Source of the DNA: Bacteroidota bacterium
GTDB lineage: Bacteria; Bacteroidota; Bacteroidia; Palsa-948
DNA: 52,452 nucleotides
Reading direction: 5' to 3'
Assembly: GCA_016213405.1 (NCBI GenBank)
Contig: JACRAM010000113.1
Coordinates: forward strand, 1-52,452
Shown one piece after another: positions 21,246 to 50,598 of this stretch. Position numbers and translations under genes: made by a program. The notes under the pieces are model-generated. The model saw only the letters and a program-made list of their open reading frames with translations, was not told the DNA's origin and made no database searches. Numbering within the stretch: the stretch's first letter is position 1; the number at the start of each line of letters is the position of its first letter.

Positions 21246-21298
21246 CCCTTGGTACATAAACACAATTAACTATTTTTACCATTCTTTTTTTGAAATCT

Positions 21299-22279
21299 AT
21301 GCAAAACGTTTTCATCACAGGAGGAGCAGGATATGTGGGAGCAGTGCTTGTGCCAAAACTTCTTACTAAAGGCTACAAAGTAACTGTTCTTGATTTGATG
21401 ATTTATGGAGAAGAGGTGCTTCCCAAACATCCTAATCTAAAATCTATAAAGGGAGATATACGCGACCAAAAACTTTTGAAAGAACTTTTGCCCGGTCATG
21501 ATGCGGTGATTCATCTCGCTTGTATCTCTAATGACCCAAGCTTTGAACTCAATCCAACTCTTGGCAAATCCATCAACCTCGATGCCTTTGAACCGCTTGT
21601 GAAAATCTCTAAAGATTCCGGAGTAAAGCGATTCATGTATGCCTCTTCCTCCAGCGTGTATGGAATAAAAGAAGAGTCCAATGTTCACGAGGGAATGAAA
21701 CTCGAGCCGCTCACCGACTATTCTCTTTTCAAAGCGCAGTGCGAAGAGGTATTAGAAAAATATCGTAGTGCTGATTTCACTACGCTAACGATTCGTCCTG
21801 CCACCGTTTGCGGATACAGCCCGCGCCTGCGTTTGGATTTAACGGTGAACATTCTCACCAATCTTGCTGTGAACAAAGGAGAAATCACCGTGTTTGGCGG
21901 AGAGCAGAAGCGCCCGAATATTCACATTGAAGACATGACGGATTTATACATCATGCTGCTCGAACTTCCGAAAGAAAAAATTTCCGGAAAGATTTGGAAT
22001 GCCGGTTATGAAAATCATAAGGTGAAAGAAATTGCGCAGATGGTGAAGAATGTTGTCGGGGAGAATGTGAACATCATCACCACTACCACCAACGATAACC
22101 GCTCGTATCATATTTCTTCCGAAAAAATAAAAAAGGATATTGGATTTGTCCCAAAGCATACCATTGAAGATGCGGTGAAAGATTTGAAAAATGCTTTTGA
22201 AAAAGGATTGATCCCGAATTCTTTTACTGACGATAAATATTTTAATGTGAAACTTATGCAACACATTAATTTGCAATAA
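21299..22279 (+). CDS. NAD-dependent sugar-nucleotide epimerase/dehydratase (extended SDR)
   Basis: 326 residues from the ATG at 21299; a TTG nine bases upstream is in frame, but the Rossmann strand begins right after this ATG. NAD motif is TGGAGYVG (about 7-14); the catalytic part is ASSSSVYG with YSLFK (Tyr-x3-Lys) near 145-150. Members act on UDP-, GDP- or dTDP-sugars, or on ADP-heptose. It opens the surface-glycan cluster, followed by a DegT aminotransferase. The exact substrate cannot be told; in context it could supply the keto-sugar for the aminotransferase, or be the missing heptose epimerase. Confidence 0.88.
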   Translation: MQNVFITGGAGYVGAVLVPKLLTKGYKVTVLDLMIYGEEVLPKHPNLKSIKGDIRDQKLLKELLPGHDAVIHLACISNDPSFELNPTLGKSINLDAFEPLVKISKDSGVKRFMYASSSSVYGIKEESNVHEGMKLEPLTDYSLFKAQCEEVLEKYRSADFTTLTIRPATVCGYSPRLRLDLTVNILTNLAVNKGEITVFGGEQKRPNIHIEDMTDLYIMLLELPKEKISGKIWNAGYENHKVKEIAQMVKNVVGENVNIITTTTNDNRSYHISSEKIKKDIGFVPKHTIEDAVKDLKNAFEKGLIPNSFTDDKYFNVKLMQHINLQ

Positions 22280-22287
22280 AAAATATT

Positions 22288-22374
22288 GGAACGCTGATGA
22301 CGCTGATAAGACTGATTTTCACGGATTTAATCTGCGTGCATCTGCAACATCTGCGTTATCCGCGTTCTATTTTC
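22288..22374. repeat. Gene-free hairpin with the same words as GxxExxY copy 1
   Basis: The left arm starts GGAACGCTGATGACGCTGAT at 22288, and the right arm read inverted is AGAACGCGGATAACGCAGAT. The words match the right arm of the GxxExxY gene at 25603-26025 (also AGAACGCTGATGACGCTGAT inverted). Here the arms are separated by only a few bases instead of a gene. It fills the spacer between the epimerase and aminotransferase genes. Confidence 0.8.
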
Positions 22375-22376
22375 CT

Positions 22377-23486
22377 ATGAAAGTACCATACATTAATTTA
22401 GCACTTCAGCATCAGGACATTAAGCAAGAACTTCTTTCTGCTGTTGAAAAAGTTTTGGTGAGCGGACAATTTATTCTGGGAGAAGAAGTAAAAAAGTTTG
22501 AAACAAGTCTTGCGAAGATTGCCGGAACAAAATACGCCATTGGCGTTGACAATGGAACAGATGCTTTGGTTCTTGCTTTAAAAGCGCTTGGAATCGGAAA
22601 AGGAGATGAAGTGATTACCGCTCCAAATTCTTTTCTGGCTTCCGCTTCGTGCATTTCTCTCGTTGGAGCAAAAATTGTTTTTGCCGATGTGCGCGATGAT
22701 TTCAACCTTGACCCTGAAAAAGTGGAGAAAGCAATCACGAAAAAAACAAAAGCAGTCATAGCCGTTCATCTTACAGGCAGACCTGCCGGCATGGATGCGC
22801 TTCAAAAAATCTGTAAGCGAAAAAAAATCCATCTTATAGAAGATTGCGCGCAGGCAGTAAGCGCTGAATACAACGGAAAGCGTGTCGGTTCTTTCGGAAT
22901 CGTAAACATATTTAGTTTGCATCCATTAAAAAATCTCAGCGCGGCAGGAGATGGGGGAGCGCTGACCACAAATAATGACAAACTTTACTCATGGCTTTCC
23001 CGCGCGCGCAATCACGGATTGAAAAACCGTGATGAATGTGATTTCTGGAGTATGAACTCGCGATTGGATAATCTTCAGGCGGCAATACTGAATGTGAAGC
23101 TGAACTATTTTGAACAGTGGACAGAGCGAAGAAGAAAAATTGCTGCTATCTATTATTCCCGATTGAAACATCTTGATATGATTGTTCCGCACGACCAACC
23201 GAATGAGAAAGCGGTATATCACACATTCATCATACAAACAAAATTCCGCGATGAGTTGAAAAAGTTTTTATCCGATAACGGAGTTGATTCAAAAGTTCAT
23301 TATCCGATCCCGATTCATTTTCAGAAATCGGCAAAGAGTTTGGGATACAAGAAGGGAAGTTTTCCTGTAACTGAAAAGCAAGTAAAAACCATTTTGAGCT
23401 TACCCATCTACGCTGAACTCACCGATGAACAGGTGAATTATGTGTGCGATAAGGTAGTTGAGTTTTATAAATTGAAAAAGAATTAA
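22377..23486 (+). CDS. DegT/DnrJ/EryC1/StrS family sugar aminotransferase
   Basis: 369 residues with the fold-type I PLP layout: GTDALVLALKALGIGKGDEV near 60-80, HLTGRPAGMD, EDCAQAVSAEYNGK (Asp binding the PLP nitrogen) near 156-168, and SLHPLKNLSAAGDGGAL with the Schiff-base lysine near 186. These enzymes transfer an amino group from glutamate to a keto-sugar nucleotide. It follows an SDR epimerase, consistent with an amino-sugar for a surface polysaccharide or glycoprotein. Confidence 0.92.
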   Translation: MKVPYINLALQHQDIKQELLSAVEKVLVSGQFILGEEVKKFETSLAKIAGTKYAIGVDNGTDALVLALKALGIGKGDEVITAPNSFLASASCISLVGAKIVFADVRDDFNLDPEKVEKAITKKTKAVIAVHLTGRPAGMDALQKICKRKKIHLIEDCAQAVSAEYNGKRVGSFGIVNIFSLHPLKNLSAAGDGGALTTNNDKLYSWLSRARNHGLKNRDECDFWSMNSRLDNLQAAILNVKLNYFEQWTERRRKIAAIYYSRLKHLDMIVPHDQPNEKAVYHTFIIQTKFRDELKKFLSDNGVDSKVHYPIPIHFQKSAKSLGYKKGSFPVTEKQVKTILSLPIYAELTDEQVNYVCDKVVEFYKLKKN

Positions 23487-25593: not shown

Positions 25594-25613
25594 AGAACGC
25601 AGATGACACAGAT
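25594..25613. repeat. Left inverted arm of GxxExxY cassette 1
   Basis: AGAACGCAGATGACACAGAT; its inverted partner is 26026-26045 (AGAACGCTGATGACGCTGAT when reverse-complemented), 16 of 20 identical. Similar words continue to about 25630 and run into the start of the gene. Confidence 0.8.
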
Positions 25614-26025
25614 AAAACAGATGAGAGCGGATAATACAGAGTTGCTACACAGCGACATCACTAAAAGAATTATTAAATGCTTCTATGAAGTTTATAATAC
25701 GTTGGGTTATGGGTTTCTTGAAAAAGTTTATGAAACCGCTCTTTATCTTGAATTGAAAAATGAAAATCTTATTGTGGATAGACAAAGACCGATTGAAGTG
25801 TATTACAAAAATGAATTAGTTGGAAATTATTTTGCTGACCTGATAATTGAAAATAGTGTAATTGTAGAAATAAAGGCGGCAGAGGGAATTGCAGAGGAGC
25901 ACGAATTTCAGTTAATAAATTATTTAAAGGCTACAGATATTGAAGTTGGATTACTCTTGAACTTTGGAAAGAAACCTGAATTCAAAAGAAAAATATTTTC
26001 AAATGATTCTGTGAAAATCCGTTAA
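25603..26025 (+). CDS. GxxExxY protein, copy 1 (PD-(D/E)XK nuclease-like)
   Basis: 140 residues from the ATG at 25603 (a second in-frame ATG is at 25621). The longer upstream frame overlaps the epimerase gene and is rejected. The name-giving motif is GFLEKVY (about 35). A PD-(D/E)XK-like core follows: FADLIIENSVIVEIKAAE, i.e. an Asp, then Glu-Ile-Lys. The family (TIGR04256/PDDEXK_3, from memory) has no settled function. The N-terminal residues MTQIKQMRAD are encoded by the left repeat arm, and the stop codon touches the right arm. It interrupts the glycan operon without an obvious pathway link. Confidence 0.85.
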   Translation: MTQIKQMRADNTELLHSDITKRIIKCFYEVYNTLGYGFLEKVYETALYLELKNENLIVDRQRPIEVYYKNELVGNYFADLIIENSVIVEIKAAEGIAEEHEFQLINYLKATDIEVGLLLNFGKKPEFKRKIFSNDSVKIR

Positions 26026-26045
26026 ATCAGCGTCATCAGCGTTCT
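26026..26045. repeat. Right inverted arm of GxxExxY cassette 1
   Basis: ATCAGCGTCATCAGCGTTCT, inverted relative to 25594-25613. It lies immediately after the GxxExxY stop codon. Confidence 0.8.
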
Positions 26046-26053
26046 ATAAAAAC

Positions 26054-27571
26054 ATGAAATCAAAAATAATATCCTTAGAAGAACTTGGAAAGATTTCCGC
26101 GAAGCTGAAGATGAGCGGAAAAAAAATTGCGCAGTGCCACGGCTGTTTTGATCTGCTTCATCCCGGACATATAAAACATTTTGAAGCGGCAAAAAATGTG
26201 GCTGATGTGGTGGTGGTGACGCTAACTCCCGACCGCTTTGTGAATAAAGGACCCGGTCGTCCGGTCTTCAACGAAAAACTTCGCCTTGAATCTATTGCTG
26301 CGCTTGAAGCGGTTGATTATGTGGCGCTGAATAATTGGCCCACGGCAATTGAAACGGTAAAAATTGTGAAACCGGATTTTTATGTGAAAGGACAGGATTA
26401 TAAAGACCGGGGAAAAGACATCACAGGAAATATTCAGAAAGAAGTAGATGCGGTGAAATCGGTCGGAGGAAAAATTTATTTCACGGAAGAAATTACTTTT
26501 TCTTCTTCTTCCTTAGTGAATGCGCATTTCAGTCCGCACAGCGATAAGGCAAAAGAATATCTTACCGCATTCAGAAAAAAACATTCCGCGGAAAAAATAA
26601 TTTCTGAGATTGACAAACTGAAGGATGTAAAAGTGCTGGTGATTGGCGATACCATTATTGACGAATACCATTACTGCCTCCCGCTCGGAAAATCCACCAA
26701 GTCGCCAAATATTTCAGCAGTATATCTTCGGGAAGAAGTTTTTGCTGGCGGAGTGCTGGCTGTGGCAAATCACCTGGAACAGTTTGCCGGCAAGGTGGAA
26801 CTTGTTACTATTCTGGGAAAAGAAAACTCCCGTCAGAAACTGATTGACGATAAATTATCTTCAGGCATTGAAAGAAAATATTTTTTCAGAAAAGATTCTC
26901 CTACCAACTGCAAGCGCAGGTATCTTGACCGCTACCTCAACATAAAACTTTTTGAAATCACTTTCATAAATGATAAACATATTGAAAAAGAACTGGAAGA
27001 AGAAGTGATTTCTCATCTGAGAAAAAAGATAAAAGACTATGATGTGGTGCTGGTCGCTGATTTCGGACATGGATTTATTTCCCCCGGCATTATTAAATTC
27101 CTGGAAGGTTCAGAAAAATACCTTGCCATCAACGCGCAGACCAACAGTAACAATTACGGATACAACTACATTACCAAATATCACCGCACAGATTATATTT
27201 CCATTGACGAGCGCGAACTGCGTTTGCCATTTGGGGATAATTACGGAGAATTAGAAAAGATAGTTGACCAACTGAAAAAAATAACTAACGCGAAAAAAAT
27301 TCAAATCACGCTCGGGCAGCAGGGAACGATGCTGTATGAAAAAAATAAATTCAGTTATACACCTGCCTTTGCCACCTCGGTGCGCGATTCGGTAGGAGCG
27401 GGTGATGCAGTGCTTTCTGTAACAGCTTTATGCTCTTATAAAAATGTTTCAAACGATGTAACAGGATTTATCGGCAACTGCGTTGGTTCGCTTGCGGTTC
27501 AGATTATCGGCAACGAGCATCCCGTTTATAAAAAAGATTTAACAAAATACATTCAACATTTTTTAAAATAA
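26054..27571 (+). CDS. Bifunctional nucleotidyltransferase-PfkB kinase (HldE/RfaE-like, reversed domain order)
   Basis: 505 residues. Residues about 25-160 are a cytidylyltransferase-like nucleotidyltransferase (GCFDLLHPGHIKHFEAAK with the HxGH motif at 36-39, and TFSSSSLVN as the SST-type motif). Residues about 190-500 are a PfkB/ribokinase-type kinase (VLVIGDTIIDEYHYC, NSNNYGYNYI, and the catalytic SVGAGDAVLS near 445-454). HldE normally has the kinase first and the nucleotidyltransferase second; here the order is reversed. HldE phosphorylates and then adenylylates a heptose phosphate. The GmhA-like isomerase gene two genes downstream supports a heptose-type nucleotide sugar. Substrate specificity is inferred. 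Confidence 0.85.
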   Translation: MKSKIISLEELGKISAKLKMSGKKIAQCHGCFDLLHPGHIKHFEAAKNVADVVVVTLTPDRFVNKGPGRPVFNEKLRLESIAALEAVDYVALNNWPTAIETVKIVKPDFYVKGQDYKDRGKDITGNIQKEVDAVKSVGGKIYFTEEITFSSSSLVNAHFSPHSDKAKEYLTAFRKKHSAEKIISEIDKLKDVKVLVIGDTIIDEYHYCLPLGKSTKSPNISAVYLREEVFAGGVLAVANHLEQFAGKVELVTILGKENSRQKLIDDKLSSGIERKYFFRKDSPTNCKRRYLDRYLNIKLFEITFINDKHIEKELEEEVISHLRKKIKDYDVVLVADFGHGFISPGIIKFLEGSEKYLAINAQTNSNNYGYNYITKYHRTDYISIDERELRLPFGDNYGELEKIVDQLKKITNAKKIQITLGQQGTMLYEKNKFSYTPAFATSVRDSVGAGDAVLSVTALCSYKNVSNDVTGFIGNCVGSLAVQIIGNEHPVYKKDLTKYIQHFLK

Positions 27572-27580
27572 TCAATAAGG

Positions 27581-27606
27581 ATTGTTTCGCAAAGGAACGC
27601 AAAGAA
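27581..27606. repeat. Left inverted arm of GxxExxY cassette 2
   Basis: ATTGTTTCGCAAAGGAACGC followed by AAAGAA: two CGCAAAG words. The partner at 28011-28055 reads ATTGTGTCGCAAAGGATTCG when inverted. Confidence 0.8.
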
Positions 27607-27624
27607 AAAGAAGAACCACCATGG

Positions 27625-28005
27625 ATGGACGAAAATGAAATTTCTAAAATAATTATTGGTTGCGCAATTGAGGTTCACAAAAAACTTGGACCCGGATTGT
27701 TAGAATCAGCATATGAAGAATGCCATTCGTATGAATTAATACAAGCGGGATTAGTTGTTGAACGACAGAAAGCTTTGCCTTTAGTATACAAAGAAGTAAA
27801 AATGGAATGCGGTTACCGATTAGATATTATGGTCAATAAAAAAGTGATTACTGAAATTAAAGCGGTTGAAGCAATAACGGACATACATTGCGCTCAACTA
27901 TTGACATATTTAAGAATTACAGGATGTAAATTAGGGCTTTTAATTAACTTCAATGTTTTGAAATTGTCTGAAGGTGGATTAAAAAGAATAGTAAACAATC
28001 TCTGA
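27625..28005 (+). CDS. GxxExxY protein, copy 2 (PD-(D/E)XK nuclease-like)
   Basis: 126 residues from the ATG at 27625. Motifs: EVHKKLGPGLLESAYEE (GLLESAY is the GxxExxY motif, about 27-33), then YRLDIMVNKKVITEIKAVEA with Asp and Glu-Ile-Lys of a PD-(D/E)XK core, and LLTYLRITGCKLGLLINF. This is the canonical form of the family. It is only about 35-40 percent similar by eye to the other two copies, so the three are not recent duplicates. It sits between the HldE-like and GmhA-like genes, with its own pair of inverted short-word arms. Confidence 0.9.
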   Translation: MDENEISKIIIGCAIEVHKKLGPGLLESAYEECHSYELIQAGLVVERQKALPLVYKEVKMECGYRLDIMVNKKVITEIKAVEAITDIHCAQLLTYLRITGCKLGLLINFNVLKLSEGGLKRIVNNL

Positions 28006-28010
28006 TGTTC

Positions 28011-28055
28011 TCTTTGCGATTCTTTGCGTTTTCTTTTGCGAATCCTTTGCGACAC
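28011..28055. repeat. Right inverted arm of GxxExxY cassette 2
   Basis: Four words of CTTTGCG or TTTTGCG type (TCTTTGCGATTCTTTGCG onward), inverted relative to 27581-27606. Confidence 0.8.
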
Positions 28056-28069
28056 AATATATAACAACA

Positions 28070-28684
28070 ATGGACATACAAAAATTCGTAAAAAAATATT
28101 CTGCTGACTTTGCTTCATTGCTTAATTTGCTGGAAGCAACGGATTCTTCTTCAAGGAAATTATCTTATGAAGAAGGAATAGAGAAAGCAGTAGAAATGGT
28201 AAAGAAAGTGCAATCGGCAAATAAAAAAATAATGATGGTGGGCAACGGAGGCAGTGCCGGAATTGCCAGCCATCAGGCAGTGGATTACTGGAAGAACGGT
28301 GGAGTGCGAGCAACCGCATTTAACGATTCATCTTTGCTGACCTGTATCTCTAATGATTTCAGCTATGCGGAAGTTTTTTCTGTACCCATTGAAAAATTTG
28401 CTGACAAAGACGATATTGTTTTCTGCATCAGCAGTTCGGGCGGATCAAAAAATATTCTGAACGCTGCAGAGCAGGCAAAAAAATCTGGATGTTTAGTTGT
28501 TACTTTTTCAGGATTCAAGAATGATAATCCTCTGCGAAAACTTGGGGACTTGAATTTTTATCTTCCTTCTCATTCTTATGGTTACGTGGAAATTCTGCAC
28601 CTGTTTATCATTCACAATATACTGGACGCGAAACTTTATTGCTCGGACAAAGTAGATGTGTTTAATAAAAACTTGCCGCTATAA
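28070..28684 (+). CDS. SIS-domain phosphosugar isomerase, GmhA-like
   Basis: 204 residues: N-terminal helix, then a SIS domain with MMVGNGGSAGIASHQAVDYW (about 55-74), FCISSSGGSKNILNAAEQAK (about 122-141) and the C-terminal helix with YVEILHLFIIHNILDA, the position of the GmhA catalytic His. GmhA converts sedoheptulose 7-phosphate to glycero-manno-heptose 7-phosphate. Together with the HldE-like protein it forms two steps of a heptose pathway; a GmhB-type phosphatase is not visible. The gene ends one base before the convergent methyltransferase gene. Confidence 0.82.
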   Translation: MDIQKFVKKYSADFASLLNLLEATDSSSRKLSYEEGIEKAVEMVKKVQSANKKIMMVGNGGSAGIASHQAVDYWKNGGVRATAFNDSSLLTCISNDFSYAEVFSVPIEKFADKDDIVFCISSSGGSKNILNAAEQAKKSGCLVVTFSGFKNDNPLRKLGDLNFYLPSHSYGYVEILHLFIIHNILDAKLYCSDKVDVFNKNLPL

Positions 28685-33260: not shown

Positions 33261-33675
33261 AAGGCAAAGGATTTTTCTCTTCAGGAATATTAATTATCCT
33301 CTTGAAGAAAACCCCATCTTTTCCAAAGTAGGCGAGAATTCCTAATTGCAGTCCGGTGCTTTTCAGATATGCAATTACTTGTTTAGCATGCTTACGGTTT
33401 ATTTGATTTCCAGCTTTGAGTTCAACAATGACTTTTTCATCAACAATAAAGTCAGCAAAATATTTTCCTATTTCTTTTTCAAGAAACTTCATTGGAATAG
33501 GAGCTTGCTGTTTAAAATTTATGGTTTGTTCTTCAAAACCGGCAGTACACGCCCTTTGGTAATATTTCTCATGTAAGCCGGGACCAAGTTCATTATATAC
33601 ACGAAATAATACACCTACAATTCTGTAACTAAGTTCCGGTTCAATTAAATCTTCTCTCTTAACTCTTTTATACAT
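33238..33675 (-). CDS. GxxExxY protein, copy 3 (PD-(D/E)XK nuclease-like)
   Basis: 145 residues. Motifs: VYNELGPGLHEKYYQRA (GLHEKYY is the GxxExxY motif, about 32-38), YFADFIVDEKVIVELKAGN (Asp and Glu-Leu-Lys) and VIAYLKSTGLQLGILAYF. The start ATG at 33673-33675 lies just inside the right arm. It separates the glycosyltransferase gene from the YfhO gene on the same strand. Confidence 0.9.
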   Translation of the reverse strand: MYKRVKREDLIEPELSYRIVGVLFRVYNELGPGLHEKYYQRACTAGFEEQTINFKQQAPIPMKFLEKEIGKYFADFIVDEKVIVELKAGNQINRKHAKQVIAYLKSTGLQLGILAYFGKDGVFFKRIINIPEEKNPLPSNSHYSG

Positions 33676-45668: not shown

Positions 45669-46718
45669 TTAGAACATGAATCCGTATTTCTGTCTTTTAA
45701 ACCGGCTGACATCGTATTTCTTTTTCTTATCCAAACCAATATTTGAACTCCATGCCAGCATAATTTCGTGAGAGCCGCTTTGAAATGAACGCAGAGGAGA
45801 AGTAATTATATCGTAAGAGTAGCTTATATGAAACTCTTCCATGAAAGTTACTCCTGCATGAAGTGCAATAGCATCGCGCAACCTTACAGACACACCGCCA
45901 AAAACTTTTTGCAGATAATGAAGCCGAAGATTGTAATCAATCGTCATGGGGTTTGCCTGTGCGTATAAAACCTGCAAAGAGTTTTCCCAAATCCAATCCG
46001 GCTGCCCTGACCAATTGTATCCCACACTTCCATAAACGTGAGGCACCATTCGGATGTTTGTTTTGTGCACGGTATCGGTTTCGGGATAATAATTAATGGA
46101 TGGTTCAAGAAGATTCAGCAAACTCAATCCGAGATGAAAACGGTCGTTGTAAAATAAAAGACCTGCGCTGGCATCCCAAACTTTTTTCGTTTGGGAAGAA
46201 GCTAGATCAATGGCATTGTCTATCGGAATGTGCATGTGAAGTTTTGTTCCGTCAACCGTATAGGAAAGATTATGAACTGCAGCGCCAACGGAAAGTTCTA
46301 CATCATCAAACTTAGCATGGAAAGAATATGCAAAAGAAAAATCAGAGCGCTTGGTGGGTCCGGTTTTGTCAGTAAAATAGGCTGCTCCCACTCCCATTGT
46401 GCCGCCTAATATTCTCGAGTTGGCAGAAACTCCCATCGTTACAGGCGCATTATCAAATCCTGTCCATTGATTTCTGTAATTCATTCTGGCATCAACAATT
46501 CTTTTTGTTCCCGCTACTCCGGGATTGAGCATTATGCTGTTCGGCTTGAACTGTGTGTAATAAGGCATCTGCTGACAGATGGCAGATGGAAAAATTCCAA
46601 AACTCAAAAAACAAAACACAAATAATATCCAAGTCCCAAGTCCCAAGAAGCAGCCAGCCACGGTTGTTCTCTTGGAATTTGGGATTTGGGATTTGGAATT
46701 TGGAATTTTATTTGTCAT
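45669..46718 (-). CDS. PorP/SprF-like outer-membrane protein, copy 1
   Basis: 349 residues. The mature part begins QQMPYYTQFKPNSIMLNPGVAGTKR, the PorP/SprF N-terminal signature, and continues as an outer-membrane beta-barrel (alternating aromatic/hydrophobic strands, final strand near ISYSYDIITSPLRSFQSGSHEI with the typical SHEI motif), plus a basic tail. PorP/SprF proteins bind exported type B clients and are needed for their secretion or surface retention. It lies 24 bp downstream of a type B client (46743-47615) on the same strand. The unusually long signal peptide (about 50 residues) is written largely by the inverted repeat 46629-46710. Confidence 0.92.
   Translation of the reverse strand: MTNKIPNSKSQIPNSKRTTVAGCFLGLGTWILFVFCFLSFGIFPSAICQQMPYYTQFKPNSIMLNPGVAGTKRIVDARMNYRNQWTGFDNAPVTMGVSANSRILGGTMGVGAAYFTDKTGPTKRSDFSFAYSFHAKFDDVELSVGAAVHNLSYTVDGTKLHMHIPIDNAIDLASSQTKKVWDASAGLLFYNDRFHLGLSLLNLLEPSINYYPETDTVHKTNIRMVPHVYGSVGYNWSGQPDWIWENSLQVLYAQANPMTIDYNLRLHYLQKVFGGVSVRLRDAIALHAGVTFMEEFHISYSYDIITSPLRSFQSGSHEIMLAWSSNIGLDKKKKYDVSRFKRQKYGFMF
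46629..46710. repeat. Inverted heptamer repeat spanning the PorP copy 1 signal peptide
   Basis: CCAAGTCCCAAGTCCCAAG at 46629-46647 (CCCAAGT heptamers) faces CTTGGAATTTGGGATTTGGG and further TTTGGGA/TTTGGAA heptamers at 46671-46710. Minus-strand translation gives NSKSQIPNSK on one arm and LGLGTWILF on the other. Confidence 0.8.
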
Positions 46719-46742
46719 TTGATGCTTGTCATATGTAATTTA

Positions 46743-47615
46743 TCATCTTATGATAGTTACCGCCCCCTGCATTTTTGATTTTCCGCTTCCGGGACTCAAT
46801 ACATAATAATACGTGGCGCAGGGAAGATCAACCCCGTCAACTCTTCCGTTCCAGTCATTTAAATAAGGCGATGCCTGATAAACAAGTTTGCCATTGCGGT
46901 TGAATACTTCAAATTTACTTTCAGGATATTTTTGAATATTTCCGATATAGAAAACATCATTCAAGCCATCTCCGTTTGGAGTGAATGCATTGTAAACAAC
47001 AAGTTCATCGCTTGGAATAACAAACAGAACCATGCAATCGTAATTTGCACAGCCATTTCCATCAACCCCTCCAACACAATATATAGTTGTATCAGAAGGT
47101 TCAGCAATTGGATTTGCTGAATTCTGATTGTAAAGAGTTTGCCAGGGATACCAATAGTAATTCACCGCACCGCTGCCAAGGAGCTGCGTATTTGTTCCTT
47201 CAATAATTGTCATATCAGGTCCTGCACTTACGTTTGGCAACGGAAAAGTATCTACAAAAATAATATCTACGGAAGAATTTCCAACTGCATCTGTAACGGT
47301 AAGTGTATAATCGGTTGGCGTGGAAGGAAAGGCATTTGGATTGGGTGAATTCGGAAAATCAAGTCCTGAAGTTGGCTGCCAGGAATAGGTGTAAAGAGGC
47401 GTTCCGCCCGTTGCTGAAGGATTGCCTCCTATCTGCACAGAATCATTCGGACAAATGCCTGTATTGTTTCCCGCATTGGCAGAAAGAGGAACGAAAGATT
47501 GAGCGTTTAAATGGCAGAAGGCAGAAGGCAGAAAGCAGAAAATAAAAATCCTCAAGAAGTATTTTTCAACGTGTAACGTGTAACTTGTAACTTGTAACCT
47601 ACTGCGCGCGTTCAT
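46743..47615 (-). CDS. T9SS type B (gliding-type tail) surface protein, PorP partner 1
   Basis: 290 residues from the ATG at 47613-47615, which overlaps the end of the membrane-protein gene by 17 bp; an internal TTG (about codon 21) would give a tidier signal peptide RIFIFCFLPSAFCHLNAQ. Body: two Ig/PKD-like domains with Cys pairs (NAGNNTGICPNDSVQIGG, VDGNGCANYDC). The tail NAFTPNGDGLNDVFYIGN, FEVFNRNGKLVY, GAVTIIR is type B. It pairs with the PorP/SprF gene immediately downstream. Heptamer repeats encode much of the N-terminal 35 residues. Confidence 0.88.
   Translation of the reverse strand: MNARSRLQVTSYTLHVEKYFLRIFIFCFLPSAFCHLNAQSFVPLSANAGNNTGICPNDSVQIGGNPSATGGTPLYTYSWQPTSGLDFPNSPNPNAFPSTPTDYTLTVTDAVGNSSVDIIFVDTFPLPNVSAGPDMTIIEGTNTQLLGSGAVNYYWYPWQTLYNQNSANPIAEPSDTTIYCVGGVDGNGCANYDCMVLFVIPSDELVVYNAFTPNGDGLNDVFYIGNIQKYPESKFEVFNRNGKLVYQASPYLNDWNGRVDGVDLPCATYYYVLSPGSGKSKMQGAVTIIR
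47513..47599. repeat. Heptamer repeats encoding the N-terminus of the type B protein
   Basis: GGCAGAA repeated three to four times at 47514-47540 (encodes FCFLPSAFCH on the minus strand) and GTGTAAC/TTGTAAC repeated four times at 47570-47598 (encodes LQVTSYTLHV). Confidence 0.75.
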
Positions 47616-49491: not shown

Positions 49492-50598
49492 ATGAAAAAC
49501 AAAAGCAAAAAGTTTTTAATTCAAAATTCAAAAGAGTTGTTCCTTTTGACTTTTGAATTATTCCTCTTTTGCCTTTTTTGCCTACTGCCTACTGCCTACT
49601 GCTTTTCACAGGACATTCACTTCTCGCAGTTTTATATGAATCCGCTTGCCATGAATCCGGCAAATGCTGGTGCAGATAGAAATGAGATGCAGGCAATTCT
49701 GAATTATAAGGACCAATGGAGAAGTGTTGCTTCTCCCTATAAAACTATTGCCCTTTCCTGCGATAAGAGAATTCAAAAGAAAAAAAGTGCTATGGATTTT
49801 TGGGCAGTGGGCATAAATTTTTTTAATGACAAAGCAGGGGATATTAATATGAAAACATTTCAGGCAAATATCTCGGCTGCCTATCATCATTATCTGAGCA
49901 AGGAAAAATATTCTTCTGTTGGTGTTGGATTGCAAACCGGTTTTGCACAGCGAAGCATTAGTTATGACGCGGTAACCTGGGGCAATCAATTTGACGGGAA
50001 CAGCTACAATCCCTTTCTCCCTACAGGCGAACCTGCCAGTGGCACTTCCTACGCCTATGGAGATTTTCTAAGCACCGGAGTTTTATATTCCTATAATAAT
50101 ACGTCCGGAAGAATAAAAGTCACTGATAATCATGAGTTGAAAGTTAATCTGGGATTTTCTGTTTTTCATATCACGCAACCCAAGTATTCATTTTATGAAT
50201 CGGGAGAGAAAATATATATGAAATATGTTTTGCATGGCAACGCTCTGCTTAGTGTGCCCAATACGAATATTGCCTTTGCTCCCGGTTTTATGTATTTCAG
50301 ACAAGGTCCGGCTCAGGAAATTTATCCGGGCACATTGATCAGATATAAACTCAGGCAAGCAAGCAAGTACACCGGTTATTATAAGTCAATGGCAATTTCA
50401 GTGGGCGCTTTCCTGAGAATGAAAGATGCCATTGCTCCTGTTGTATTATTCGAAAATGCGGGTTATAGTATCGGACTCAGTTATGATGTAAATGTCTCTG
50501 ATTTGAAAGTAGCTTCAACAGGCAGAGGAGGATTTGAAATTTCTCTGAAGTATCAAATGCCTGTTAGAGCCATTTACGGAAGCAGGTCTAAATTTTAA
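49492..50598 (+). CDS. PorP/SprF-like outer-membrane protein, copy 2
   Basis: 368 residues. Mature start QDIHFSQFYMNPLAMNPANAGAD is the classic PorP/SprF signature; the rest is an outer-membrane beta-barrel ending with SYDVNVSDLKVASTGRGGFEISLKYQM. It is the downstream partner of the type B protein at 48231. The signal peptide (about 40 residues; LFCLFCLLPTAYCFSQ) is built on GCCTACT heptamers and a TTCAAAAG/CTTTTGAA inverted pair. Confidence 0.93.
   Translation: MKNKSKKFLIQNSKELFLLTFELFLFCLFCLLPTAYCFSQDIHFSQFYMNPLAMNPANAGADRNEMQAILNYKDQWRSVASPYKTIALSCDKRIQKKKSAMDFWAVGINFFNDKAGDINMKTFQANISAAYHHYLSKEKYSSVGVGLQTGFAQRSISYDAVTWGNQFDGNSYNPFLPTGEPASGTSYAYGDFLSTGVLYSYNNTSGRIKVTDNHELKVNLGFSVFHITQPKYSFYESGEKIYMKYVLHGNALLSVPNTNIAFAPGFMYFRQGPAQEIYPGTLIRYKLRQASKYTGYYKSMAISVGAFLRMKDAIAPVVLFENAGYSIGLSYDVNVSDLKVASTGRGGFEISLKYQMPVRAIYGSRSKF
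49521..49602. repeat. Short-word repeats encoding the PorP copy 2 signal peptide
   Basis: TTCAAAATTCAAAAG at 49521-49535 with inverted CTTTTGAA at 49550-49557, then GCCTACT three times in a row at 49580-49600. They encode IQNSKE, LTFELF and LLPTAYC. Confidence 0.8.

Follow-up and report, generated by a model that had tools for sequence, protein, structure and literature searches.

The locus studied here raises the question of how a hairpin that holds no gene came to stand between two protein-coding genes, and why it is written in the same words as the inverted arms that bracket a nuclease-like gene a short distance downstream. The window, by which we mean the whole stretch of 52,452 nucleotides that was analysed, is contig C113 of a draft genome (G000; 3.65 Mb in 127 contigs). 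An initial annotation had described the two forms as the full and empty states of a mobile unit with non-autonomous derivatives. The hairpin and its neighbours are placed as follows:

21290 to 22279, plus strand: NAD-dependent epimerase/dehydratase gene, 329 aa, TTG start as listed, upstream of the hairpin
22289 to 22367, no strand assigned: gene-free hairpin of 79 nt (word inspection, folding, arm alignment)
22289 to 22326, plus strand: left arm of the hairpin, CTGAT-type words (from the sequence)
22330 to 22367, minus strand: right arm of the hairpin, CAGAT/CGGAT-type words (from the sequence)
22377 to 23486, plus strand: DegT/PseC-like sugar aminotransferase gene, 369 aa, downstream, its ATG 10 nt after the hairpin

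The cassettes of the window with which it is compared are these:

25595 to 25633, plus strand: left arm of cassette 1, GAACGCAGATGACACAGAT... (words, arm alignment)
25621 to 26025, plus strand: GxxExxY gene of cassette 1 (TIGR04256; PF13366 PD-(D/E)XK; D, E-x-K and Q-x3-Y residues)
26007 to 26044, minus strand: right arm of cassette 1, reverse complement GAACGCTGATGACGCTGAT... (words, arm alignment)
27580 to 28058, plus strand: cassette 2, a GxxExxY gene (27625-28005) inside GCAAAG-word arms
33292 to 33636, minus strand: third GxxExxY gene of the window, with CGAATAATACGAAT words in its arms

The left half of the hairpin consists of four words (GAACGCTGAT GACGCTGAT AAGACTGAT TTTCACGGAT), its centre is TTA, and four reverse words follow (ATCTGCGTGC ATCTGCAAC ATCTGCGTT ATCCGCGTTC). 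It lies inside the co-directional gene pair, with 9 nt between the epimerase stop codon (22279) and the hairpin and 9 nt between the hairpin and the aminotransferase ATG (22377); it contains no remnant of a gene, and the word GAACRC.GAT is present in its inverted arms. When folded it beat all of 200 dinucleotide shuffles (z of -4.6 as RNA and -3.9 as DNA). The reverse complement of its arm agrees with the right arm of cassette 1 at 32 of 38 positions, and its agreement with the left arm extends to 27 of 39; in 30 shuffled windows the top 38-nt match of this same arm ranged from 21 to 25. The initial annotation was therefore right that the hairpin between the epimerase and aminotransferase genes shares the words of cassette 1 (32 of 38 positions against at most 25 in shuffles). 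It was also right that cassette 1 lies 3.2 kb away (left arm from 25595), that the hairpin is inverted relative to it, and that one pair of arms encloses a nuclease-like gene, now specified as TIGR04256/PF13366, and the other a few bases; the two 20-mers that it quoted are correct in sequence. Chance or low complexity as the origin of the hairpin was ruled out by the shuffles, the arm match and the Markov control given below.

The reading frame of cassette 1 starts within the left arm and stops within the right arm, and its product matches TIGR04256 (4e-41) and PF13366 (PD-(D/E)XK; 7e-43). Residues D63, E73, K75, Q87 and Y91 fall in invariant columns of a 31-sequence alignment, D / E-x-K and Q-x3-Y being the residue pattern of RecB-type nucleases. 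In the structure model (mean pLDDT 91.9) the nearest PDB chain is 4ic1 (SSO0001), which we take to be a Cas4 protein, and the matches that follow include LHK and lambda exonucleases. By the modelled fold and the D / E-x-K residues, cassette 1 is predicted to encode a PD-(D/E)XK protein. Spread by viruses was considered and rejected, as viral_contigs held no relative of this protein. Annotations of GxxExxY and four-helix-bundle proteins are widespread in the genomes of Bacteroidota and their relatives, though we know of no function for these proteins.

Cassette 1 has company in its genome, which holds 11 GxxExxY genes and 23 four-helix-bundle (TIGR02436) genes. The two flanks match each other inversely above the 95th percentile of all mismatched flank pairs at 32 of the 34, and above the 99th at 26 of 34. 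The words vary by cassette (GCAAAG, CGAATACGAAT, GTTTACAG, CCAAGT, TTAAGGAT and others), and the genes are not recent copies of each other, the top pair among the 11 GxxExxY genes having 66% identity and most of the 23 four-helix-bundle genes being likewise no recent mutual copies. The 23 four-helix-bundle genes (S23/IVS-type; L028-L050) stand nearly all in inverted arms with words of their own, and they are IVS-like cassettes outside rRNA.

We surveyed 38 stretches of this genome, the window and 37 others, which together make up 782 kb or 21% of it. With the loop no longer than 140 nt and the score at least 32, there were 43 inverted repeats, compared with 1 in one first-order Markov control; part of them are RAYT-type or terminator-like, and many are written in words known from particular cassettes. 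A cassette arm matched a gene-free hairpin at a score of at least 26 for 14 of the 34 cassettes, as against 5 of 34 with reversed arms, and at a score of at least 30 for 11 as against 2. Wide inverted pairs (250-900 nt, score at least 36) came to 13, the control having 0, and a GxxExxY or four-helix-bundle gene lies within 8 of the 13. These counts (14/34, 8/13) extend the full and empty pattern beyond cassette 1. Two further gene-free inverted repeats were noticed in the window itself: one at 46584-46748, whose CCAAGT/CAAAT words resemble the arms of the four-helix-bundle cassette L046, and one at 49498-49579, whose TTCAAAATTCAAAAG words resemble those of the four-helix-bundle cassette L040.

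Across genomes the canonical unit measures 79-80 nt. It begins with four degenerate words, each roughly 10 nt long, and after a short centre continues with four in reverse, a build found in several genomes of several families. Among 127 inward word pairs, 31 were spaced at 79-80 nt and 47 at 401-560 nt, that is, at the sizes of the empty and the full form, the proportions of these length classes having no meaning because selection of the loci rested in part on the gene. One Bacteroidales MAG carries at least 11 near-identical hairpins of about 80 nt, in rows that flank a GxxExxY gene on both sides (L243, 722-2303).

The word was found to go with one subfamily of GxxExxY genes. The subfamily set comprised 80 loci fetched for close relatives of the cassette 1 protein together with L052 and L087, hence 82, the fetched loci being mostly from Bacteroidota but also from Ignavibacteria, Delongbacteria, Marinimicrobia, Calditrichia/Caldithrix, Cloacimonadota and one Methylobacter bin. 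GAAC[AG]C.GAT occurred in at least one arm at 74 of the 82 and in both arms at 48, while 8 of 82 had it in neither; the 82 are not as many independent events, because orthologous sites of related species are included. The same word was present in the arms of none of 30 other high-scoring GxxExxY loci from a sample of the phylum, where GxxExxY was found in 152 of 296 genomes. It was present at 2 of 25 loci from the genus, one of which (L143) is a member of the subfamily at the same site as L198, and at 1 of the 11 GxxExxY loci of the genome itself, namely cassette 1. Protein similarity and arm similarity were correlated across 148 loci (Spearman 0.62; permutation maximum 0.11 in 500) and across the 64 loci outside the subfamily (0.36; permutation maximum 0.12 in 1,000), close pairs with flanks common by descent adding to both values. 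A test of own against other arms, pooled over the 148 GxxExxY loci, gave no separation (45 of 148 above the 95th percentile) because one word is common to most of these loci; this test is informative within a genome only, as in the 32 of 34 reported above.

A scan of 395 genomes of the phylum with the pattern GAACRCDGATDACRCDGAT, allowing up to one mismatch, yielded about 1,180 matches in 125 genomes, versus 11 matches for the reversed control pattern. A search of these genomes with the cassette 1 protein placed a subfamily gene in 57 (E at most 1e-33) and only other GxxExxY genes in 125, the remaining 213 having none at E 1e-8. At least three word matches were found in 48 of the 57 subfamily genomes, 24 of the 125 with other GxxExxY only and 5 of the 213 with none; for at least five matches the figures were 42, 19 and 3, a threshold that covers one or two cassettes and not more, because the arms of a cassette yield up to two matches each. 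Within each of the four best-sampled families taken alone, genomes with the gene had more words (Mann-Whitney p of 4e-5, 0.003, 4e-5 and 0.02). The association has exceptions on both sides: 5 of the 57 subfamily-positive genomes had no word match, and 22 genomes without the subfamily gene had at least five, the highest count being the 182 matches of G102, which holds a truncated gene only. The window's own genome has the subfamily gene in cassette 1. The pairing of full and empty forms is thus specific, the word family going with one GxxExxY subfamily.

Comparison of the same sites between genomes revealed how empty forms arise. G011, which belongs to another family, holds in the slot of the window hairpin a GxxExxY gene of the same subfamily within outer arms GAACGCTGAT / ATCTGCGTTC, next to an aminotransferase gene whose product is 71% identical to the window's. 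In G050 the slot is occupied by a gene-free hairpin with quite different words (AACTATGAAC), so that the slot attracts hairpins in general; the gap between epimerase and aminotransferase holds a hairpin or a cassette in all three genomes that have this gene pair. At 27571-28070, where the window has a full GxxExxY cassette in GCAAAG arms, G011 and G050 are empty, and G003, of the same genus as the window, has kept the GCAAAG arms around ATGAATGAAAATGAATTATAA, which amounts to six codons similar to those at the beginning of the gene, plus a stop. The slot upstream of a gene that we named hisS from its sequence contains in G005 CGAATACGAATC arms with a GxxExxY gene of which about 29 codons are left, most of the remainder being missing; here it contains a gene-free hairpin in the words of G005, with a full cassette one gene further upstream. 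A third decayed GxxExxY gene in kept arms is that of G004 (L178:1600-2060), inside which we also observed a nested inverted repeat in other words (GGTTTTTAGTTTATTAG). Lastly, one intergenic slot carries in this genome a cassette with GATTACAG words (L022) and in G004, of the same genus, a cassette of the other subfamily with GAACGC words (L143), so that gene and words change together. GxxExxY genes are therefore lost while their arms persist, and slots are reused. What the initial annotation had said of full and empty forms stands to this extent: the pairing is real and specific to one GxxExxY subfamily, and empty forms arise by deletion at orthologous sites.

Its idea of a non-autonomous mobile derivative fared less well, since eight of the nine full-length copies in the genome sit in longer repeats or in flanks resembling terminal repeats. 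Searching the genome with the hairpin yielded 16 matches with E values up to 10, nine of them full length, and the window hairpin aligns end to end with the eight other gene-free copies; seven of those are within repeated elements and one is so probably. L002-L005 have about 155 bp in common, bounded by terminal repeats GTAACTGTTTAAATTT and flanked on either side by TAA/TTA (L002:1474-1626). L007-L009, which may be fewer than three copies because they are located at contig ends, have 138-140 identical bp in common and ends GGACTTTCGCAA, and L006 has other, probable, terminal repeats. Many hairpins of G102 likewise lie inside elements, ending in GAGACCTCTGAAAAAT or CAATGCTGTCAA; in one stretch of 16.4 kb three such hairpin-bearing elements are absent from G136, whose flanks are 77-80% identical, and one of the three insertions has a 5-bp TAGTA duplication. 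Distinct terminal inverted repeats together with a target-site duplication, the mark of a MITE, were found in L002-L005 and in that one G102 insertion, and the window copy shows neither, having no terminal repeats because just 9 nt per side separate it from coding sequence. The same hairpin core has been picked up repeatedly, by at least two types of terminal-repeat element here and by others in G102; as at least two and probably three terminal-repeat types carry it in this genome, the core must be older than each of them. Copy number is thus largely a matter of hitch-hiking on terminal inverted repeats (TIRs), and becomes weaker evidence that the nuclease moves hairpins.

The suggestion that arms with a gene in them always enclose GxxExxY was answered in part. 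Among 30 loci from an unbiased word search, in which enclosed GxxExxY and four-helix-bundle genes were scored, one encloses the former and none the latter, and most appear gene-free or unpaired. A relaxed search for mates at 30 loci of the phylum was noisy (100 real matches versus 57 for the reversed pattern).

We next consider what the window copy is. The account that we favour, with modest confidence, takes it as a solo hairpin that stayed behind when a GxxExxY gene was lost from this very gap, the system being REPIN-like with a PD-(D/E)XK nuclease as its partner. The hairpin would be a gene-free member of a family belonging to one GxxExxY subfamily (small PD-(D/E)XK nucleases of RecB/Cas4 type), whose words also bracket the subfamily gene in cassettes such as cassette 1; a cassette would once have occupied the operon gap, and the loss of its gene with retention of the arms would have left the window copy. 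The nuclease may recognise its words as DNA, probably in an extruded or single-stranded hairpin, and such recognition could insert, maintain or spread the units. In favour of this account are the subfamily gene in the same slot of G011, the GxxExxY genes deleted inside kept arms in G003, G005 and G004, the link of word and subfamily with the correlation of protein and arm similarity, the hairpin row of L243, the lack of room for terminal repeats and the conserved catalytic residues. Against it count the hairpin in other words that fills the slot in G050, the 22 genomes rich in the word but lacking the subfamily gene, the 5 subfamily genomes and 8 subfamily loci that lack the word, and the fact that no bare hairpin was seen to move. 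Against gene loss in particular speaks, beside the missing gene remnant, the full-length alignment with the eight gene-free copies, which is expected if a ready-made hairpin was copied and not if it arose by local deletion. This leads to a competing view that we consider rather unlikely yet worth weighing, namely that the GxxExxY protein of the subfamily copies the bare 79-nt hairpin into gaps in trans, as REPINs are mobilised, and that the window copy is one such insertion. The discrete unit of 79-80 nt in several families, the association of its words with the subfamily gene across genomes, the similarity of dispersed copies over their full length and the row of hairpins adjoining the gene in L243 would all follow from it. 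Nevertheless, no empty and filled pair of sites for a bare hairpin was found in the genomes compared, the three tested G102 inserts moved within terminal-repeat elements, and G011 carries the gene in the same slot. If the hairpin were simply passive cargo of MITE-like elements spread by ordinary transposases, the elements L002-L005 and L007-L009 and the G102 insertions absent from G136 would be accounted for, and we accept this for most of the other copies. For the window copy it is very improbable, with just 9 nt per side, a core older than each of its several terminal repeats and a link to one nuclease subfamily that would be left unexplained.

A role in RNA was given little credence for other reasons. 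A host-useful element in the mRNA, acting on processing, stability or translation of the aminotransferase in the manner of intercistronic REP sequences or of an IVS cut by RNase III, would agree with the position of the hairpin within a co-directional pair, ending 9 nt before the ATG, with the filling of this gap by a hairpin or cassette in all three genomes that have the gene pair, and with the Coxiella IVS, a small ORF within inverted ends that is excised by RNase III (PMC4990558). The alignment A3 of 23 hairpins (one to three per locus, from 36 of 76-84 nt) argues otherwise: arm pairing was 85.7% as observed and 85.7% with shuffled partners, the covariation score among the 23 hairpins was not raised (0.098 versus 0.091 +/- 0.009 shuffled), and word centres are often mismatched, two of them being unpaired in 17 of 23 and 20 of 23 hairpins. 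That the arms pair is a consequence of words conserved on both strands, and this appears to fit selection on a recognised DNA word better than on an RNA stem. At columns 7-80, 17-71 and 37-51 the word centre is usually mismatched, often as A/A or T/T, one arm tending to have CAGAT and the other CTGAT. Periodic mismatch was tried as a structural signature and dropped, as two of the four centres pair less than expected, one more and one about as expected. No Rfam family matched above threshold at the hairpin, the sole match with E<1 being Ref68, in the aminotransferase gene and below its gathering score; identity with a structured RNA was rejected, as neither an Rfam match above threshold nor covariation was found.

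The proposition that this is an ordinary RAYT/REPIN repeat, served by a REP-associated tyrosine transposase, is extremely improbable. Genes of the RAYT type (Y1_Tnp) do occur in 10 of 10 genomes tested, with 8 matches in the window's genome, and REPINs are hairpins of paired repeats (PMC3116915). However, GAACRC.GAT was found within 300 nt of Y1_Tnp at only 2 of 30 loci in 10 genomes, many of which have palindromes of their own (for example CCACGACCTTTAGGTCGTGG). RAYT/REPIN identity for this word was rejected on that count, and its partner is GxxExxY. Searches of open-access literature yielded no report of GxxExxY genes with inverted words, and the papers found there to name GxxExxY do so once each, in passing.

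Several known systems bear comparison with the hairpin, which in the preferred account is what the loss of a gene has left. The hairpin resembles MITEs in being short, gene-free and palindromic, and some copies of the core ride in TIR elements; it differs from them in that the window copy lacks separate terminal repeats, as well as room for any, and in that several different TIRs carry the core. Within the Bacteroidota, the BrickBuilt MITE of Porphyromonas gingivalis is likewise intergenic, contains short repeats internally and has small inverted ends, but it is made of tandem 23-nt units and its abstract describes no nuclease-gene partner (PMC4596501). A closer parallel is the 23S rRNA IVS with an S23/four-helix-bundle ORF (Coxiella, Leptospira), where a small ORF stands in terminal inverted arms and the gene decays while the arms are kept, the 23 four-helix-bundle genes here having the same arm architecture. 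The differences are that our hairpin lies between two protein genes with no Rfam match nearby, that the gene is GxxExxY and not S23, and that the arms are quasi-repeats of a word specific to the locus or subfamily.

The likeness to REPIN/RAYT systems (Pseudomonas, E. coli) is that of short hairpins of two inverted repeats, several per genome and extragenic (as checked for the window copy), and of repeat groups that each go with one type of enzyme and bracket the gene for it, with clusters beside the gene as in L243. The partner here is, in contrast, a GxxExxY protein, PD-(D/E)XK nuclease-like, and not a Y1 (HUH) transposase, the arms are four degenerate 10-nt words, and genes are often inside one hairpin; RAYTs in these genomes coexist with other palindromes. 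Taking the comparison further, GxxExxY proteins may be the catalytic, non-HUH half of REPIN-like systems, each subfamily recognising an alphabet of words of its own and spreading or maintaining it in trans, with the S23 four-helix-bundle set as a parallel and, in a genome like this one, a dozen or more pairs of enzyme and word together with the empty hairpins of each, a generalisation that we offer tentatively as possible rather than probable. Strict pairing of subfamily and word, if true, would provide orphan nucleases with a direct, testable substrate, and may explain a share of the palindromes of the genome (43 versus 1 in the control, some being RAYT-type or terminator-like). It would also bring a second enzyme class, beside the one known from REPIN/RAYT, to the question of how bacterial genomes come to keep short hairpins.
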